DNA of 33,518 nt, taken from Acidimicrobiaceae bacterium (GTDB lineage: Bacteria; Actinomycetota; Acidimicrobiia; Acidimicrobiales; RAAP-2). The notes beneath the pieces were generated by a model. That model made no database searches and was not told the DNA's origin. It saw nothing but the letters and a program-made list of their open reading frames with translations. Location of the stretch: assembly GCA_003142095.1 (NCBI GenBank), contig PLON01000015.1, positions 1 to 33,518 of the forward strand, written 5' to 3'. The position numbers were made by a program, and so were the translations under genes. Shown piece by piece: positions 3,505 through 29,039 of this stretch (its first letter is position 1; every line of letters starts with the position of its first letter).

Positions 3505-4377
3505 ATGCAGTTACTTGAGTACGCGCTAGTCAACGGGATTCTCTTCGGGCTGTTTTACGGGTTCATTGGTATCGGACTGAACCTGCTATTCGGAGTGATG
3601 CGACTGGTGAACCTGGCCCACGGTGACTTCGTGGTCTTCGGTGGCTACCTGGCCTACTCGCTCGTGACCGTCTTCCATGTCGGTTCGCTTTGGGCGATAC
3701 CACTGTCGATCCCTTTGGCACTCCTGTTGGGGTTTGTGCTCTACCAGGTGACGGTTCCCCGTCTCAAGCGCTCACCAGATACCGAGACGGCGTCGCTCAT
3801 CGCGTTCTTTGGTGTCTCTCAGGTGCTCCAGGCGGTGGCCACGATGATCTACGGCGCCAATCAAATAACGCTCCCTTCGCTCGGTGGTCCGATCAGCATC
3901 TTCGGCCAGTCCTACCCATCGAGCGTGGTCATTTCTGCCAGCCTGTCCGTTCCGGCCCTCGGCGTCCTTTACCTCTATCTCTACCGGACAAGGCTCGGGC
4001 TCGCGACCCGAGCCGTCATGGCCGATGAGCAAGAAGCGATCGCTTCAGGTGTGCGGGTGCGTCTGGTCGCGACGTCGGCCTTCATGATCGGCATTGCCTT
4101 CGCCGCAGCCGCGGGAACACTCAGCGTCTTCATGCTCGGCGGGATCAACCCGACGTCAGGCAGCGCTCTCACCGTAACCGCCTTCACGGTCATTATCATC
4201 GGTTCGCTCGGCAACCCCCTCGGCACCATCGTCGGCGGTCTGCTGGTCGGGCTCGCCTCGAGCTTGACCCAGGCCTACGCGACCGAATGGACGGGAATGA
4301 TTCCCTATGCCTTGCTGTTGGCGGTCGTGCTGTTGAGGCCGAGCGGGCTATTCGGAAGAAAGGTTCGCAGTGTCTAA
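3505..4377 (+). CDS. livH: Branched-chain amino acid ABC transporter permease, LivH type
   Basis: 290 residues, highly hydrophobic with about eight membrane segments. The N-terminal GILFGLFYGFIGIGLNLLFGVMRLVNLAHGDFVVFGGYL is a hallmark of LivH permeases (shown here in part by GVMRLVNLAHGDF). The cytoplasmic coupling loop is seen around residue 170 (TRAVMADEQEAIASGV). The next gene, livM, begins 8 bases before this one ends, so translation is coupled. With LivM it would form the membrane channel of the importer. Confidence 0.93.
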   Translation: MQLLEYALVNGILFGLFYGFIGIGLNLLFGVMRLVNLAHGDFVVFGGYLAYSLVTVFHVGSLWAIPLSIPLALLLGFVLYQVTVPRLKRSPDTETASLIAFFGVSQVLQAVATMIYGANQITLPSLGGPISIFGQSYPSSVVISASLSVPALGVLYLYLYRTRLGLATRAVMADEQEAIASGVRVRLVATSAFMIGIAFAAAAGTLSVFMLGGINPTSGSALTVTAFTVIIIGSLGNPLGTIVGGLLVGLASSLTQAYATEWTGMIPYALLLAVVLLRPSGLFGRKVRSV

Positions 4378-23921: not shown

Positions 23922-24188
23922 ATGGGATCAGCAGGCGACAAACCGAGAAAGCCACGTCGACGTATGGCGAAAGTACCGCGCGGACTGGAGCCGAACAACC
24001 CGCCCCTGGCCGGTCTCACCAACTCTTCCGGCGGCACGTACGGTCCGCGCGTCGATCACGACGCCGCGAGTTCGCGCAGCTCGAACCTGGGACGATTCGG
24101 CCGGGCGTTCTTGTGGATCCTCGGGCGCCGTCGTCGCCCACCAGTCGATCCCAACACCGAAGCCGAGGCCGACACCGAGGCCGAATAA
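23922..24188 (+). CDS. Hypothetical polar protein
   Basis: 88 residues. It starts Gly/Ser/Lys/Arg-rich (GDKPRKPRRRMAKVPRG), has a central polar stretch and a short hydrophobic FGRAFLWILG, then a basic RRRR cluster and an acidic Glu/Ala/Asp/Thr tail. The third-position GC is high throughout, as in real genes here. No ribosome-binding site is seen before the ATG, and TTGACG about 40 bases upstream may belong to a promoter. No family recognised. Confidence 0.55.
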   Translation: MGSAGDKPRKPRRRMAKVPRGLEPNNPPLAGLTNSSGGTYGPRVDHDAASSRSSNLGRFGRAFLWILGRRRRPPVDPNTEAEADTEAE

Positions 24189-24230
24189 ATCTGTCGTAAA
24201 CCTGAGCGGCCGCACAGTTAGATTGAGCCA

Positions 24231-24755
24231 ATGGCCATCGAACACGACACGAAAGACTGGACCTGGGTTCTCGAACGGCCCTGCGAAGAGTGTGGCTTCA
24301 ACGCCGACAGCGTCGGGACCGACGTGCTCGCCGAGAAACTTCGCGACAGCGCTACACGGTGGTCAGCGGTGTTGTCGCGTGAGGACGTGCGAATACGTCC
24401 GAGTGAGAGCCAGTGGTCACCGCTCGAATACGCCTGTCACGTGCGCGACGTTTTCCTCGTCTGCTACGGACGACTCGTCCTCATGCTGGAGAACGACAAC
24501 CCCACCTTTGAGAACTGGGATCAAGATGAAACGGCGATCGAGGCGCGCTACTGCGATCAAGATCCCACCGACGTACGCGACGAACTCTGCGCCAGCGCAC
24601 GACGCTACGCCGACCGATTCGACACCCTTGAGGCCCCTCAGTGGTCGCGGCCGGGACTGCGCTCCAACGGCAGCGAATTCACGGTGGCGTCACTTGGACG
24701 CTATTCCCTGCACGACGTCGTCCACCACCTCTGGGACGTCGGCGCTCCGGTCTAG
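24231..24755 (+). CDS. DinB-superfamily protein
   Basis: 174 residues from the ATG at 24231. The four-helix DinB fold is suggested by WSPLEYACHVRDVFLVCYGRLVLML and a C-terminal LGRYSLHDVVHHLWDVG, which supply the three metal-binding His positions (CHVRD, then LHDVVHH). Family members are metal-dependent enzymes that act with thiols such as mycothiol or bacillithiol, or have unknown roles. Start has no clear Shine-Dalgarno sequence. It converges with the DUF885 gene. Confidence 0.8.
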   Translation: MAIEHDTKDWTWVLERPCEECGFNADSVGTDVLAEKLRDSATRWSAVLSREDVRIRPSESQWSPLEYACHVRDVFLVCYGRLVLMLENDNPTFENWDQDETAIEARYCDQDPTDVRDELCASARRYADRFDTLEAPQWSRPGLRSNGSEFTVASLGRYSLHDVVHHLWDVGAPV

Positions 24756-24762
24756 GGCGGCG

Positions 24763-26454
24763 TCACTCCCCGCGCCAGCCGCGCATTTCGTCTTCGAAGG
24801 GGTCGAGACCCATCGGACCGAGCGCCAAGGCGTGCGCGTGAAAACGTTTGAGCGAAAAGTCGTCGCCGAGTCGATGGCGAGCCTCTTCGCGCGAACGCAT
24901 CCATACCCGCTCACCCACCTTGTAGGAGATCGCCTGCGCCGGTAGTCCCAGGTAGCGCTCCACCTCCGAGACCGACATCTCGTGCGACTGAATGGCCCGC
25001 TCCTCGAGCACGGCGACCGCCATCTCCGGCGTCCACACGCGGCCCGAGCAGTCGCCGAGATCCGCGAGCTCCCCGAGGTCGTCGGGCGCGGGCAGTTGCA
25101 AGTGCATGCCGATGTCGACCATGACGCGCGCCGCGCGCAGCGCCTGACCCGCGAGGAATCCCATTTCCTCGCCGAGATCGTCGAAGAAACCGAGCTCGTC
25201 CATCAGACGTTCGGCGTAGAGGGCCCACCCTTCGCCGTACCCGCTCGTCCAAGCTTCGAGTCGGTGAAAGCGACTCTGGCGATCGGCTTCGAGGATCGAG
25301 GTCGCACACTGCAGGTGGTGGCCCGGCACGCCTTCGTGGTACCAGGTCGAGGCGTCACTCCACCAGGAGAAGGTCGTGGCGCCGAGCGTGGGGAACCACG
25401 TCGTGCCCGGTCGAGAGAGATCTTCGCTCGGTGGGATGTAATACGGCGCCGCCGCCGATCCTTCGGGCGCGAGTCGCGCGTCACAGAAGCGAATGCGCGG
25501 ATCGATATCGAAATGGACACCGTCGAGTTTTTCGATGGCTCCTTGAGTGAACGAAATGAGCCGACGCAAGAGTTCGTCGGTGCCGTCGATGAAGCGCGAG
25601 GGATCGTGGTCGAGGTGATCGGCCACCTCTACGAGACTCGTGGCGCCGGGTACGAGGGTATTGGCGATCTCCCACATGCGAGCATTGATGCGACGCAGAT
25701 CCGCGTAGCCCCATTTGTAGAGCTCGTCGAAGTCGAGGACGGCGCCGGTGAAGCTCTGTGACCAGACGCGGTAGCGGTCAATGCCACAAAAATCACGCTC
25801 GTTCGCTCGTGGCGCGAGTTCGTCGCGCAGCCACGCAGAGAGTTCACCGCACGCCGCGTCGGCGTCGTTCGCGGCCCGCACAAGTCGACCGTCGTCGTCG
25901 AGATTCGCCGTCACCGTCTTCGCAAAACGTGCGTAAGTACCCGTCGCGTAGGTCGCGGCCTGATCGGCCACCCCGAGCACATGGCGGCGCGACGCCAGTC
26001 GATCGCTGTTGGCGAGCCCTTCCAGAGTCGGTCGCCAACTCTCCAACGCGGAACGCACCTTCTCTAGTCGCGTCGAGATGATGGAGCGTTCCTCGTCACT
26101 CTCATGGCTCATCAGTTCGAACACTTGACGAATCTCCGACAACGGCGAGGTGAGCACGGAAAAGAGCCGCTCGGACTCTCCGGACTCGAGCAGACCGCGA
26201 CGAGTCTCAAGTCGCTCGCGCATAACGGCCAGTGCGATGCGGTCAATCTCGTCGCTCGCCGACAGTGTGTCGAGACGATCGCAGTGCTCTCTCGTGGCCG
26301 CAAGATGCTTCGCGGTGGCGTCGGGCGAGAAGTCCGGTAAGAACTCGTCGTAGTCGATAATCCCCGAGCCGGTAGCGAAGATGGGATCGAGTTGAGCGTC
26401 GTGCTCGACGATGGTATTCGCGTACGCGAACACGTCAGAACGATGTTCAGTCAT
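24763..26454 (-). CDS. DUF885 family metallopeptidase-like protein
   Basis: 563 residues, the usual length of DUF885 proteins. The signature is WYHEGVPGHHLQC near residue 375, in which the HEGxPGHH provides metal-binding residues, followed by EGWALYAERLMDELGFF and a long C-terminal helical part with DLGELADLGDCS. No signal peptide, so it is probably cytoplasmic. Members are thought to be zinc peptidases, but few are characterised. The large antisense frames over this gene are codon-structure shadows. Confidence 0.9.
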   Translation of the reverse strand: MTEHRSDVFAYANTIVEHDAQLDPIFATGSGIIDYDEFLPDFSPDATAKHLAATREHCDRLDTLSASDEIDRIALAVMRERLETRRGLLESGESERLFSVLTSPLSEIRQVFELMSHESDEERSIISTRLEKVRSALESWRPTLEGLANSDRLASRRHVLGVADQAATYATGTYARFAKTVTANLDDDGRLVRAANDADAACGELSAWLRDELAPRANERDFCGIDRYRVWSQSFTGAVLDFDELYKWGYADLRRINARMWEIANTLVPGATSLVEVADHLDHDPSRFIDGTDELLRRLISFTQGAIEKLDGVHFDIDPRIRFCDARLAPEGSAAAPYYIPPSEDLSRPGTTWFPTLGATTFSWWSDASTWYHEGVPGHHLQCATSILEADRQSRFHRLEAWTSGYGEGWALYAERLMDELGFFDDLGEEMGFLAGQALRAARVMVDIGMHLQLPAPDDLGELADLGDCSGRVWTPEMAVAVLEERAIQSHEMSVSEVERYLGLPAQAISYKVGERVWMRSREEARHRLGDDFSLKRFHAHALALGPMGLDPFEDEMRGWRGE

Positions 26455-26487
26455 GGAGCGTTGAGGTCATGGTGACCCTCAGGATAC

Positions 26488-26607
26488 TCAACCCGATGAT
26501 TCGTCGATAGAGGTGACCGGTCCGTTCCACGACCACTGGGGCATGGCGAGACCGAGGAAGGCATCGCTTCCGCCAACGAATTCGTAGACGGATTGACGTT
26601 CGCCCAT
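26488..26607 (-). CDS. 39-residue ORF with truncated-haemoglobin-like start
   Basis: The ATG at 26607 has an excellent ribosome-binding site, AAGGAGGT, ending three bases before it, stronger than that of any neighbour. The peptide begins MGERQSVYEFVGGSDAFLGL, which fits the first helix of group II truncated haemoglobins (...YE.VGG...F..L), then MPQWSWNGPVTSIDESSG and a stop. No heme-binding residues are possible in so short a chain. It is either a truncated globin remnant or a true micropeptide. A DosR-type box lies 77-96 bases upstream. Confidence 0.5.
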   Translation of the reverse strand: MGERQSVYEFVGGSDAFLGLAMPQWSWNGPVTSIDESSG

Positions 26608-26683
26608 TCGACCTCCTTCGTTCATTATGGCGCGAGTCCCGGCTGCGCCGTACAGCCCTGAAAAAGTGGCGAATGTCCCCCCG

Positions 26684-26703
26684 CTCGGGACTTTCGTCCC
26701 TAA
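26684..26703. promoter_or_regulatory. DosR/DevR-type dormancy box
   Basis: The site reads CTCGGGACTTTCGTCCCTAA. Against the mycobacterial consensus TTSGGGACTWWAGTCCCSAA, 17 of 20 positions agree, and the core GGGAC-N4-GTCCC is perfect. A further GTCCC half-site (26675-26679) lies just left of it. It is central in the gap between the minus-strand 39-codon ORF and the plus-strand 103-codon gene, 77-112 bases from each start, and a DosR-like regulator is encoded 400 bases away. Binding is inferred. Confidence 0.75.
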
Positions 26704-26795
26704 CGTACCGCGTCGACACGAGCGAATACTGAATTCGTGACGTATCCCGGATGCGTCACGGGCTCATCTGAACAAAGCGCGAGGAGGCCAACTCC

Positions 26796-27107
26796 ATGTA
26801 CGTCCAACTACTGACCGATGCACTAGACGAGTGGGTGGTGGCCTCTGATCGTCACGACGTCGTCGCTCACGTCGTCGCGTGTCGCACGCAGATGCTTCTC
26901 ACGTCGCCGCGCAGCGGCGAACCCGCGTACCGAGCGCTCGCGGCTCAGGTTTCGTACGATCGATCGCTCATCAAACTCTGCGGGATTTTCGACATTGCGA
27001 CGTCGGTCGACAACTTCACCAACCCCCTCGCCGAGCGCCGTCGACTCGAGCAAGAACTCGCCCTCGCGGGGCTCGATTTCGCGGAACTCTCGAGCGCCGG
27101 ACTTTAG
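26796..27107 (+). CDS. Hypothetical protein, predicted DosR-box target
   Basis: 103 residues; the ATG follows GAGGAGG at eight bases, a strong ribosome-binding site. The protein is soluble and probably helical: MYVQLLTDALDEWVV, VVAHVVACRTQMLL, ALAAQVSYDRSLIKLCGIFDI, and a C-terminal ERRRLEQELALAGLDF. Its three Cys/Asp/Arg-containing segments suggest a conserved, structured protein rather than a random frame. It converges with the regulator gene, overlapping it by four bases. The upstream GGGAC-N4-GTCCC box suggests induction by the neighbouring regulator. I do not recognise a named family. Confidence 0.75.
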   Translation: MYVQLLTDALDEWVVASDRHDVVAHVVACRTQMLLTSPRSGEPAYRALAAQVSYDRSLIKLCGIFDIATSVDNFTNPLAERRRLEQELALAGLDFAELSSAGL

Positions 27108-27760
27108 ATCTGCGTTCGCGGCGCCTCGGCGCCCTTCAGCTTCGTCACATACACGGCCGCCTCGGTGCGATTGCTCATGTTGAGTTTGTTGAGAAGCCCG
27201 GTCATGTAGTTCTTTACCGTCTTCTCCGAGAGGAACATGGACTCGGCGATCTCTCGATTCGTGAGTCCTTCGGCGATGAAGTCGAGGAGTCGGCGTTCTT
27301 GGGGAGAAAGCGCTGCGAGTTCCGATCGAGGTTGGGGAGGATTAGCGATTCGTTCGACCACTCGCGCCACGGCGCGTGGATCCATCAGAGACGCACCGCC
27401 CGCTACTTTCTTCACGTCCTCAATGAGGTCGCGGGCACGAATCTGCTTAAGGACGTAGCCGGCCGCCCCCGCCATCACGCTCGCGTAGAGAGCTTCGTCG
27501 TCGGCGAAACTCGTGAGCATCAGACAGACGATCTCGGGATGCGACGACCGCACTTCTCGACAGACCTCAATGCCGCTACCGTCGTCGAGCCGCACATCCA
27601 AGATTGCGACGTCGGGTTTCACGACAGGGATTCGAGCCAAGGCTTCGGCGACCGACGATGCCTGGCCAACGACTTCGATGTCGTCGTCAGTTTCGAGCAG
27701 GCTGATCACTCCTTCTCGAACCATTTCGTGGTCATCGAGAAGAAAGACGCGTATTGCCAT
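27104..27760 (-). CDS. dosR: DosR/DevR-like response regulator (NarL/LuxR family)
   Basis: 218 residues. The receiver domain has the acidic pair Asp9-Asp10, phosphorylation site Asp55 (VAILDVRL), Thr83 and Lys105. The LuxR-type helix-turn-helix is EGLTNREIAESMFLSEKTVKNYMTGLLNKL. The stretch SVAEALARIPVVKPDVAILDVRL and the recognition helix SEKTVKNY (Lys180, Lys183, Asn184) are very close to mycobacterial DosR, whose recognition residues sit in the same order. A matching DNA box is nearby. No histidine kinase (DosS/DosT type) is in this window, so the sensor must be elsewhere. Start ATG at 27760; GGAG two bases before it is too close to be a good ribosome-binding site. Confidence 0.88.
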   Translation of the reverse strand: MAIRVFLLDDHEMVREGVISLLETDDDIEVVGQASSVAEALARIPVVKPDVAILDVRLDDGSGIEVCREVRSSHPEIVCLMLTSFADDEALYASVMAGAAGYVLKQIRARDLIEDVKKVAGGASLMDPRAVARVVERIANPPQPRSELAALSPQERRLLDFIAEGLTNREIAESMFLSEKTVKNYMTGLLNKLNMSNRTEAAVYVTKLKGAEAPRTQI

Positions 27761-27876
27761 AGCTCCATTGTGTCAGCAACGTGGCTCGACGTGTGAAGGA
27801 CACCTCACCCGCCCGCCATACGGGCCTCGTGAGTACCGTCGTGGCGCCATACCGCAGGATTGACGACGCCTTAAAG

Positions 27877-28548
27877 TTACGTCGCCTTCTCGCTCGCCAT
27901 GCTCGCGATCATCCCGGGCACCAGCGCCTTCGAACCGACGCCGATGCTGATGACCGGGTGCAGGCTCGGCGCCAGCCAGCGCATCACCCGATCGAGAACT
28001 CCTTCGGGAATGGCGACGCAGCCCTCCGTCGCAGAACCAAAACTCACGTGCAGGAAGAATCCACTGCCGGCGCCCTTCACGACGGGGTTCATGTTGTAGT
28101 TGATGACCACGGCGTGGGCGTAGGCGACGCCGGAGTAGTAGAGGTTCTCCGAATTCCCTCCCGGTGAGACGCGGCTCACCACGAGGCGGTTGTAGTGAGG
28201 CGACGCCGGGTTCTCATCCCACCAATCGTCCGGTCCGACGTGCACGTACGACAGACGGGTGCCGTTATCGGGTTGGTTGCCAAATGCCTGGGTCAGTGTG
28301 AAGACACCGACGGGGGTACGACCGAGTCCTTCGCGAGTGGGTCGCACGCCATTCACCCCGACCCACGCTACGACGGCGGGAAACACCTGCACGTAGTGAC
28401 CGTCACTCGCGAGACGCCACGTACGAAGTACGGCGGTCTGCGACAGCGGCGTCGCCGCTTCGACAGTGATGACCTGACCGGGCAAAGATGCGGCGCTTGC
28501 CGACCTCGAAAAGATGGCGAGTGCTCCGAGCACGCTGACCACCACCAC
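27877..28548 (-). CDS. Exported L,D-transpeptidase-family (YkuD) protein
   Basis: 223 residues with a GTG start at 28548; the frame is open further upstream with basic residues, so the signal peptide may begin earlier. Hydrophobic VVVSVLGALAIFS then SASAASLPG gives a likely cleavage near residue 19. The YkuD active-site region is GSGFFLHVSFGSATEGCVAIPE, with His167 and catalytic Cys177 (the G-C of H...[ST]xGC). Such enzymes crosslink peptidoglycan or attach proteins to it. HVSFG/GC lacks the usual SHGC serine-histidine pair directly before the Cys, as in the subfamily related to uncharacterised exported proteins. Role therefore tentative. Confidence 0.85.
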   Translation of the reverse strand: MVVVSVLGALAIFSRSASAASLPGQVITVEAATPLSQTAVLRTWRLASDGHYVQVFPAVVAWVGVNGVRPTREGLGRTPVGVFTLTQAFGNQPDNGTRLSYVHVGPDDWWDENPASPHYNRLVVSRVSPGGNSENLYYSGVAYAHAVVINYNMNPVVKGAGSGFFLHVSFGSATEGCVAIPEGVLDRVMRWLAPSLHPVISIGVGSKALVPGMIASMASEKAT

Positions 28549-28603
28549 AGCGCTACGTATCGACGCATGACAACGTGTGCGGGCGACCCGGTATCGTCCC
28601 TCA

Positions 28604-28996
28604 TCAGGGGGTTTCGTCAGCCGGGTCCGCGTCGTCTTCGCCCATGAAGTGGGGGTTGAAAATGAACCCGATGATCGAGCCGTCGGGCGTCCTCACCGAG
28701 GCCGTAATGATTCCTTCGCCCACGTCGGTCGGCTCGGCGTCTAACGTCGCGCCCGCTTCTAAGGCCGAATCGACGGCAGCGTTCACGTCGTCCACGCCCC
28801 AATAGGTCAGCGCACCCTCTGCGGGATCGGCGTCGGGCAACAGTCCGAGCTCGTAACCCCCTGGATCGAACCCCACGTAGAACGGCTCATCGAAATAGGG
28901 CTCGAAACCGAGAAACTCCGTCCACCACTGTTTGGCCGCCTCAAGATCCGGCGCGGGGTAGATCACGGTTCGAAGCCCTAACAGTTCTGTGCTCAT
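28604..28996 (-). CDS. VOC (glyoxalase) family protein
   Basis: 130 residues. LRTVIYPAPDLEAAKQWWTEFLG and DEPFYVGFDPGGYELGLLPD form the first module, and YWGVDDVNAAVDSALEAGATLD with DPDGSIIGFIFNPHF-type TPDGSIIGFIFN the second, as in Glyoxalase/bleomycin-resistance proteins. The active-site Glu of the family is seen in YELGL. An acidic C-terminal tail of about 12 residues follows. Substrate unknown. Its start lies close to, and divergent from, no other gene; downstream lies the YkuD gene on the same strand after 55 bases. Confidence 0.88.
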   Translation of the reverse strand: MSTELLGLRTVIYPAPDLEAAKQWWTEFLGFEPYFDEPFYVGFDPGGYELGLLPDADPAEGALTYWGVDDVNAAVDSALEAGATLDAEPTDVGEGIITASVRTPDGSIIGFIFNPHFMGEDDADPADETP

Positions 28997-29039
28997 GGAC
29001 CTTGTCTACCAGTACTTGCGCGCATGCGACGACAGACAC

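Follow-up and report, generated by a model that had tools for sequence, protein, structure and literature searches.

A 39-codon open reading frame (ORF) on the minus strand of a 33,518-nucleotide stretch of Acidimicrobiaceae DNA (contig PLON01000015.1; the window) is very probably the remnant of a truncated-haemoglobin gene that lost its interior through an in-frame deletion and kept both ends. The observations behind this reading are that both ends of the peptide are homologous, in order, to the ends of full-length globins, that the core between them is lost, and that intact genes stand at the corresponding place in relatives. Genomes of relatives are given below by their G numbers. The features concerned are as follows.

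24763 to 26454, minus strand: DUF885 gene, next downstream of the probable remnant (33-nt gap)
26488 to 26607, minus strand: 39-codon ORF, stop codon included; probable remnant, an in-frame fusion of the two ends of a truncated-haemoglobin gene
26491 to 26553, minus strand: codons 19 to 39, globin C-terminal tail (GLAMPQWSWNGPVT) plus a 7-residue extension; from alignment and C-terminal profile
26539 to 26553, minus strand: putative deletion junction GGTCTCGCCATGCCC; from flank comparison with G069 and G071
26554 to 26607, minus strand: codons 1 to 18, N-terminal (first-helix) globin part; from alignment and N-terminal profile
26611 to 26618, minus strand: Shine-Dalgarno sequence AAGGAGGT, separated by 3 nt from the ATG at 26607
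26687 to 26700, no strand assigned: DosR-like palindromic box GGGACTTTCGTCCC, between the ORF and orf103; from a pattern match
26796 to 27107, plus strand: conserved 103-aa ORF (orf103), divergent from the probable remnant; synteny marker, no Pfam or NCBIfam match
27104 to 27760, minus strand: NarL/LuxR-type response regulator; synteny marker and candidate regulator acting at the box
27877 to 28548, minus strand: YkuD (L,D-transpeptidase-like) gene; synteny marker

The ORF has the coordinates and length that an earlier note on this DNA had assigned to it (26488 to 26607, 39 codons), and it lies on the minus strand, with its ATG at 26607 and its stop ending at 26488; the plus strand carries a stop in the frame of the same interval. 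The encoded peptide is MGERQSVYEFVGGSDAFLGLAMPQWSWNGPVTSIDESSG, and the reading frame is clean, with 0 stops and 0 frameshifts over the 39 codons. An alternative in-frame ATG at 26625, six codons upstream, would give 45 aa and is located before the ribosome-binding site. The AAGGAGGT octamer occurs a single time in the window when both strands are searched; the note describes it as the best Shine-Dalgarno match seen there. By eye, a purine-rich ribosome site also precedes the intact globin gene in at least G008, G075, G015, and G007. A consensus promoter scan returned no sigma-70-type site, a blastn comparison of the region with a phage collection gave no match, and no Rfam family matched within 24000 to 29000 at the gathering threshold. 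A terminator-like site at 26684 to 26669, between the box and the ORF, was given no weight (0.3 such sites are expected by chance); a genuine terminator there would reduce the remnant's expression. Among the papers listed in literature searches, none was recognised as dealing with this locus.

A MAFFT alignment of the peptide with six full-length relatives opens one internal gap in the peptide, between AFL and GLAM. In a truncated haemoglobin of about 150 residues (PF01152), the first helix is the part to which residues 1 to 18 align, and residues 19 to 32 align to the last 14 residues of the G069 globin (GLAMPQWSWNGPVT versus GLAVPRWSWDGPVT, 11 of 14 identical). Relative to that globin, residues 18 to 135 are missing, which amounts to 118 residues or 354 nt, in frame. 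The six full-length relatives share 62 invariant columns, 53 of which fall in the deleted stretch; the peptide retains 8 and differs at 1 (A10). From globin anatomy, the haem-pocket residues are presumably among the 53. The 39-aa peptide thus lacks the core residues that hold haem and, because the core is lost, the remnant cannot be a working globin. The parts that remain nevertheless show the sequence descent expected of a truncated-haemoglobin gene remnant.

Searches with the peptide as query point to the same pair of ends. Among 61 genomes (the organism's own and 60 relatives), the peptide gives two separate, ordered matches within one full-length ORF of G015 (153 aa), and likewise two ordered matches within one full-length ORF of G007. 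G071 and G069 also give two separate matches each, the N-terminal one in G069 at E 0.325 only. Compared with G015, differences at codon positions 1, 2, and 3 number 2, 3, and 6 over 13 codons of the N-terminal part and 0, 0, and 4 over 8 codons of the C-terminal part. These counts are less skewed elsewhere (1, 1, and 1 of 8 for the C-terminal part of G069; 4, 5, and 6 of 13 for the N-terminal part of G075), and the third-position lean in some comparisons cannot date the differences relative to the deletion.

Profiles built from the full-length globins were scored against the peptide and against 20,000 shuffles of it per profile. With the joined ends of six relatives, the peptide reaches 62.2 bits, compared with 12.3 for the best shuffle; across the window's 895 reading segments, the ORF-bearing one aside, the top score is 5.2. 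The six-relative profile included G015 and G007, both first found with the peptide itself; for this reason we repeated the comparison with G069, G075, and G008 only, which are syntenic and absent from the first peptide search result. Against the three-relative joined profile, the peptide still scores 44.6 bits, compared with 15.0 for the best shuffle. Taken alone, the N-terminal half scores 22.0 bits with six relatives (0 of 20,000 shuffles reach this; best, 14.0) and 10.6 bits with three (reached by 3 of 20,000 shuffles), so that the first-helix resemblance claimed in the earlier note is real but forms the weaker half. The same note had the resemblance stopping at once after the first 20 residues; in fact, it continues in the second half, where the C-terminal tail of that globin is matched at 32.9 bits with six relatives (0 of 20,000 shuffles; best, 16.6) and 23.9 bits with three (0 of 20,000; best, 15.4). 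Both halves together, in this order and at this place, are not a product of chance. The profile search that had been proposed as a check therefore succeeds in one form and not in another: a profile made from relatives finds both ends, whereas the peptide alone yields no hit at E up to 10 in either Pfam or NCBIfam and falls short of the PF01152 cut-off (21 bits), a silence that we put down to its short length.

The genus set comprised 99 genomes, among them the organism's own. The full-length G015 globin matches PF01152 (Bac_globin) at 43.4 bits, above the cut-off, and we take its subfamily, which occurs in Actinobacteria and certain further phyla, to be group II-like. The PDB entries that match the G015 protein best are 4uzv (a haemoglobin), 2bmm (Thermobifida fusca), and HbO (2qrw/1ngk); the PDB match list also contains DARPins, which we take for chance. 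With this globin as query, 44 of the 99 genomes match at E <= 0.01. Twelve of these do so at E <= 1e-27, six of them at 61 to 100% identity (G015 itself included) and six at 37 to 40%. The peptide as query finds some match at E <= 1 in 54 of the 99 genomes, and its residues 1 to 39 are matched whole in the organism's own genome only. Nine other peptide matches reach E <= 0.02, eight inside full-length globin genes and one in G122 (E 0.016, in an 82-aa frame), where no frame with W[ST]W in the locus reaches 60 codons. We set aside weak partial matches (E 0.1 to 0.4), many of which were to frames of about 540 to 650 aa.

The organism also has another truncated haemoglobin, intact, on contig 46. 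When the G069 globin was searched against the genome at E <= 10, it recovered only the remnant and this contig 46 gene, and no other copy of the lost core. Origin of the ORF by partial duplication of the contig 46 gene was rejected: the N-terminus of that protein reads MEESLFDQVGGDAFF, and it lacks the PxWSWNGP tail. Globins of the remnant's own subfamily (genes L022, L023, L086, L087, L088, and L090) share the conserved end PxW(S/T)W(N/D)G, and they carry H or N where the contig 46 protein has the Tyr of AFY, which we assume to be position B10.

A DUF885 match at E <= 1e-20 is present in 53 of the 99 genus genomes, and we compared the surroundings of the five loci most similar to that of the window (G008, G063, G075, G069, and G007; 68 to 75% identical in DUF885). 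An intact full-length globin gene lies upstream of DUF885 on the same strand in four of the five (G008, G075, G069, and G007). Thus the full-length gene that the earlier note had suggested looking for at this place in related genomes is indeed there, as an intact orthologue in four of five syntenic relatives. In G069 the globin gene directly adjoins DUF885, 116 nt apart, whereas in G008, G075, and G007 a DUF1905/OmdA gene occupies a gap of about 600 nt between the two; this gene is absent from the same interval in the window and in G069. The arrangement of the window, with box, globin, and DUF885 adjoining, recurs in G069 only. There the box has the globin on one side and a divergent alcohol dehydrogenase gene on the other. 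The window has no room for the latter, and its nearest homologue in the organism's own genome is 57% identical and lies on contig 40.

The flanking markers agree in part. All three (orf103, the response regulator, and YkuD) are present in G008, G069, and G063; YkuD is the sole marker found in G007, and in G075 the locus is ended by the contig end. In G008, G069, and G063, orf103 stands beside the response regulator, as it does in the window, and is 41 to 45% identical. In the fifth relative, G063, the globin is reduced in the same place to ...LPRWSWGGLDA-stop, with no globin start. This segment scores 17.1 bits against the C-terminal profile, a value reached by 1 of 20,000 shuffles of the segment, and it reads as a second globin loss with a different upstream breakpoint. 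Of the six syntenic loci (the window and the five relatives), four still have the globin; the other two lack it as a result of different deletions. The PRWSWGGLDA-stop tail of G063 (locus L089, about 3540 to 3600) adjoins the start of the DUF1905/OmdA gene. In comparison with five relatives, the window's DUF885 gene carries 10 additional nt immediately behind its presumed ancestral start (in the region 26447 to 26470). Translation from that former start would now yield a 7-codon ORF (MTSTLHD), which overlaps the current ATG at 26454; initiation of DUF885 may depend on coupling or reinitiation.

As in a member of a DosR-type regulon, a palindromic box lies upstream of the ORF, at 26687 to 26700, with 79 nt between it and the ATG at 26607. 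The name DosR/DevR and the box consensus are those of regulon boxes of Actinobacteria. The pattern GGGACnnnnGTCCC occurs at 9 places in the organism's genome, and the reversed control pattern occurs at 0. The scan covered five of the eight remaining sites, with five nearby ORFs; three match HSP20, DoxD/DoxX, and DUF1918, with these genes lying 44 to 103 nt downstream of their boxes, and two match nothing. The nine sites may perhaps mark a DosR-like regulon in Acidimicrobiaceae. Among the named NCBIfam regulators listed for the neighbouring response regulator, there is none whose cut-off it reaches. The box is present in the fetched stretches of G008, G075, G069, and G063 and was not found in those of G007 (8.5 kb), G015, and G071; the box and the globin are separated in G008 and G075 by a gene encoding 211 residues, which is absent from the window and the G069 stretch. 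Because four of the five relatives' DUF885 loci also have it, the box at the remnant was probably inherited from an intact locus, and since the box and the ribosome-site region both occur in intact loci of relatives, neither calls for a new origin.

We propose that the interval from the DosR-like box to the DUF885 gene once held a truncated-haemoglobin gene. A single in-frame deletion, of 354 nt relative to G069, would have taken the stretch from the end of the first helix through to the last 14 or so codons, fusing ...SDAFL to GLAMPQWSW... The likeliest cause would be a slip between short direct repeats. At the junction, GGTCTCGCC recurs in the right flank of G069, and CTCGCC stands at the corresponding position in the left flank of G071, giving about 6 to 9 nt of shared sequence as far as the relatives show; the possible direct repeat is a composite of two different relatives and was not seen in the parent gene. 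The peptide has G at residue 19; on the left side the relatives show A, and on the right side G069 shows G, a pattern that fits a breakpoint near residue 19. With box, ribosome-binding site, start, and stop retained, transcription and translation of the 39-residue peptide may continue, presumably as a remnant without function.

The tidiness of the ORF is an argument for reading it otherwise, since an old neutral remnant need not keep a clean 39-codon frame. Together with the strong ribosome site and the box upstream, that frame would suit a functional micropeptide, in which the joined ends were co-opted, kept by selection, and made under the DosR-like box. However, the earlier note's suggestion of a micropeptide evolved from a globin fares poorly. 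The short form is not conserved across species, being confined to the organism's own genome among the 99 of the genus. The box also stands at the relatives' syntenic loci, and it and the ribosome-site region are explicable as inherited. Loss of the same gene in a different way in G063, with no globin start kept, points to dispensability. We consider the micropeptide very unlikely. A leader ORF, the translation of which sets expression of the DUF885 gene 33 nt downstream, gains some plausibility from this close spacing on one strand and from the altered DUF885 start, where the MTSTLHD ORF overlapping the present ATG makes coupling conceivable. Against it stand the lack of any Rfam match within 24000 to 29000 at the gathering threshold, its occurrence in a single genome, and the globin being an ordinary full-length gene in the intact loci, and it too seems very improbable. 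More broadly, that a hypoxia-controlled globin gave rise to a 39-residue peptide with a role of its own under a DosR-like box, for example as a leader coupling DUF885 expression, strikes us as very unlikely, and a function for the peptide finds no support in the present data.

Two further readings deny that a gene was lost here. The genome is a draft in 77 contigs, and an assembly artefact could have joined the two ends of an intact gene; yet the overlap at the junction is about 6 to 9 nt, which is shorter than usual assembly words, and no second genomic place holds the missing core, making such an artefact highly unlikely. A chance resemblance of an unrelated short ORF would agree with the lack of any Pfam or NCBIfam match at E up to 10 and with the N-terminal half, which alone is weak when three relatives are used (3 of 20,000 shuffles reach its score). 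It is barely credible given that the halves match in order, that the joined profile lies far above all shuffles, and that the ORF sits at the expected genomic place. Besides the clean frame and the lean of some codon comparisons to third positions, the remnant reading has to accommodate a gene order that varies among relatives, with G007 lacking the box in its fetched stretch and G008 and G075 having the 211-residue gene in between. The truncated globin remnant near a DosR-like box, which the earlier note had also entertained, holds up in the form of an in-frame internal deletion that kept both ends.

An event of an ordinary kind, the formation of a gene remnant by in-frame internal deletion, accounts for the ORF, its ribosome site, and the box, and a puzzling short ORF is in this way explained by descent. 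The case shows that such a deletion can leave behind a small ORF that is clean and has a strong ribosome site, which calls for caution in small-protein annotation. Deletion of the same globin in two different ways within one genus suggests that it is dispensable in some Acidimicrobiaceae.

Compared with PF01152 truncated haemoglobins, both ends of the ORF appear to derive from a family member, but about 118 residues, the globin core, are lacking, as is a PF01152 match. The box resembles DosR/DevR regulon boxes in being a palindrome, GGGACnnnnGTCCC, repeated at nine sites, with HSP20, DoxD/DoxX, and DUF1918 genes downstream of three, and is unlike them in that two of the five scanned ORFs have no family match. 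For the deletion itself, a study of Haloquadratum walsbyi ties many inferred deletions to direct repeats of 4 to 20 bp (PMC3119063). The repeat proposed here is pieced together from two relatives, not from the parent sequence; the junction is compatible with a repeat of 6 to 9 nt, within the 4- to 20-bp range given in that study.
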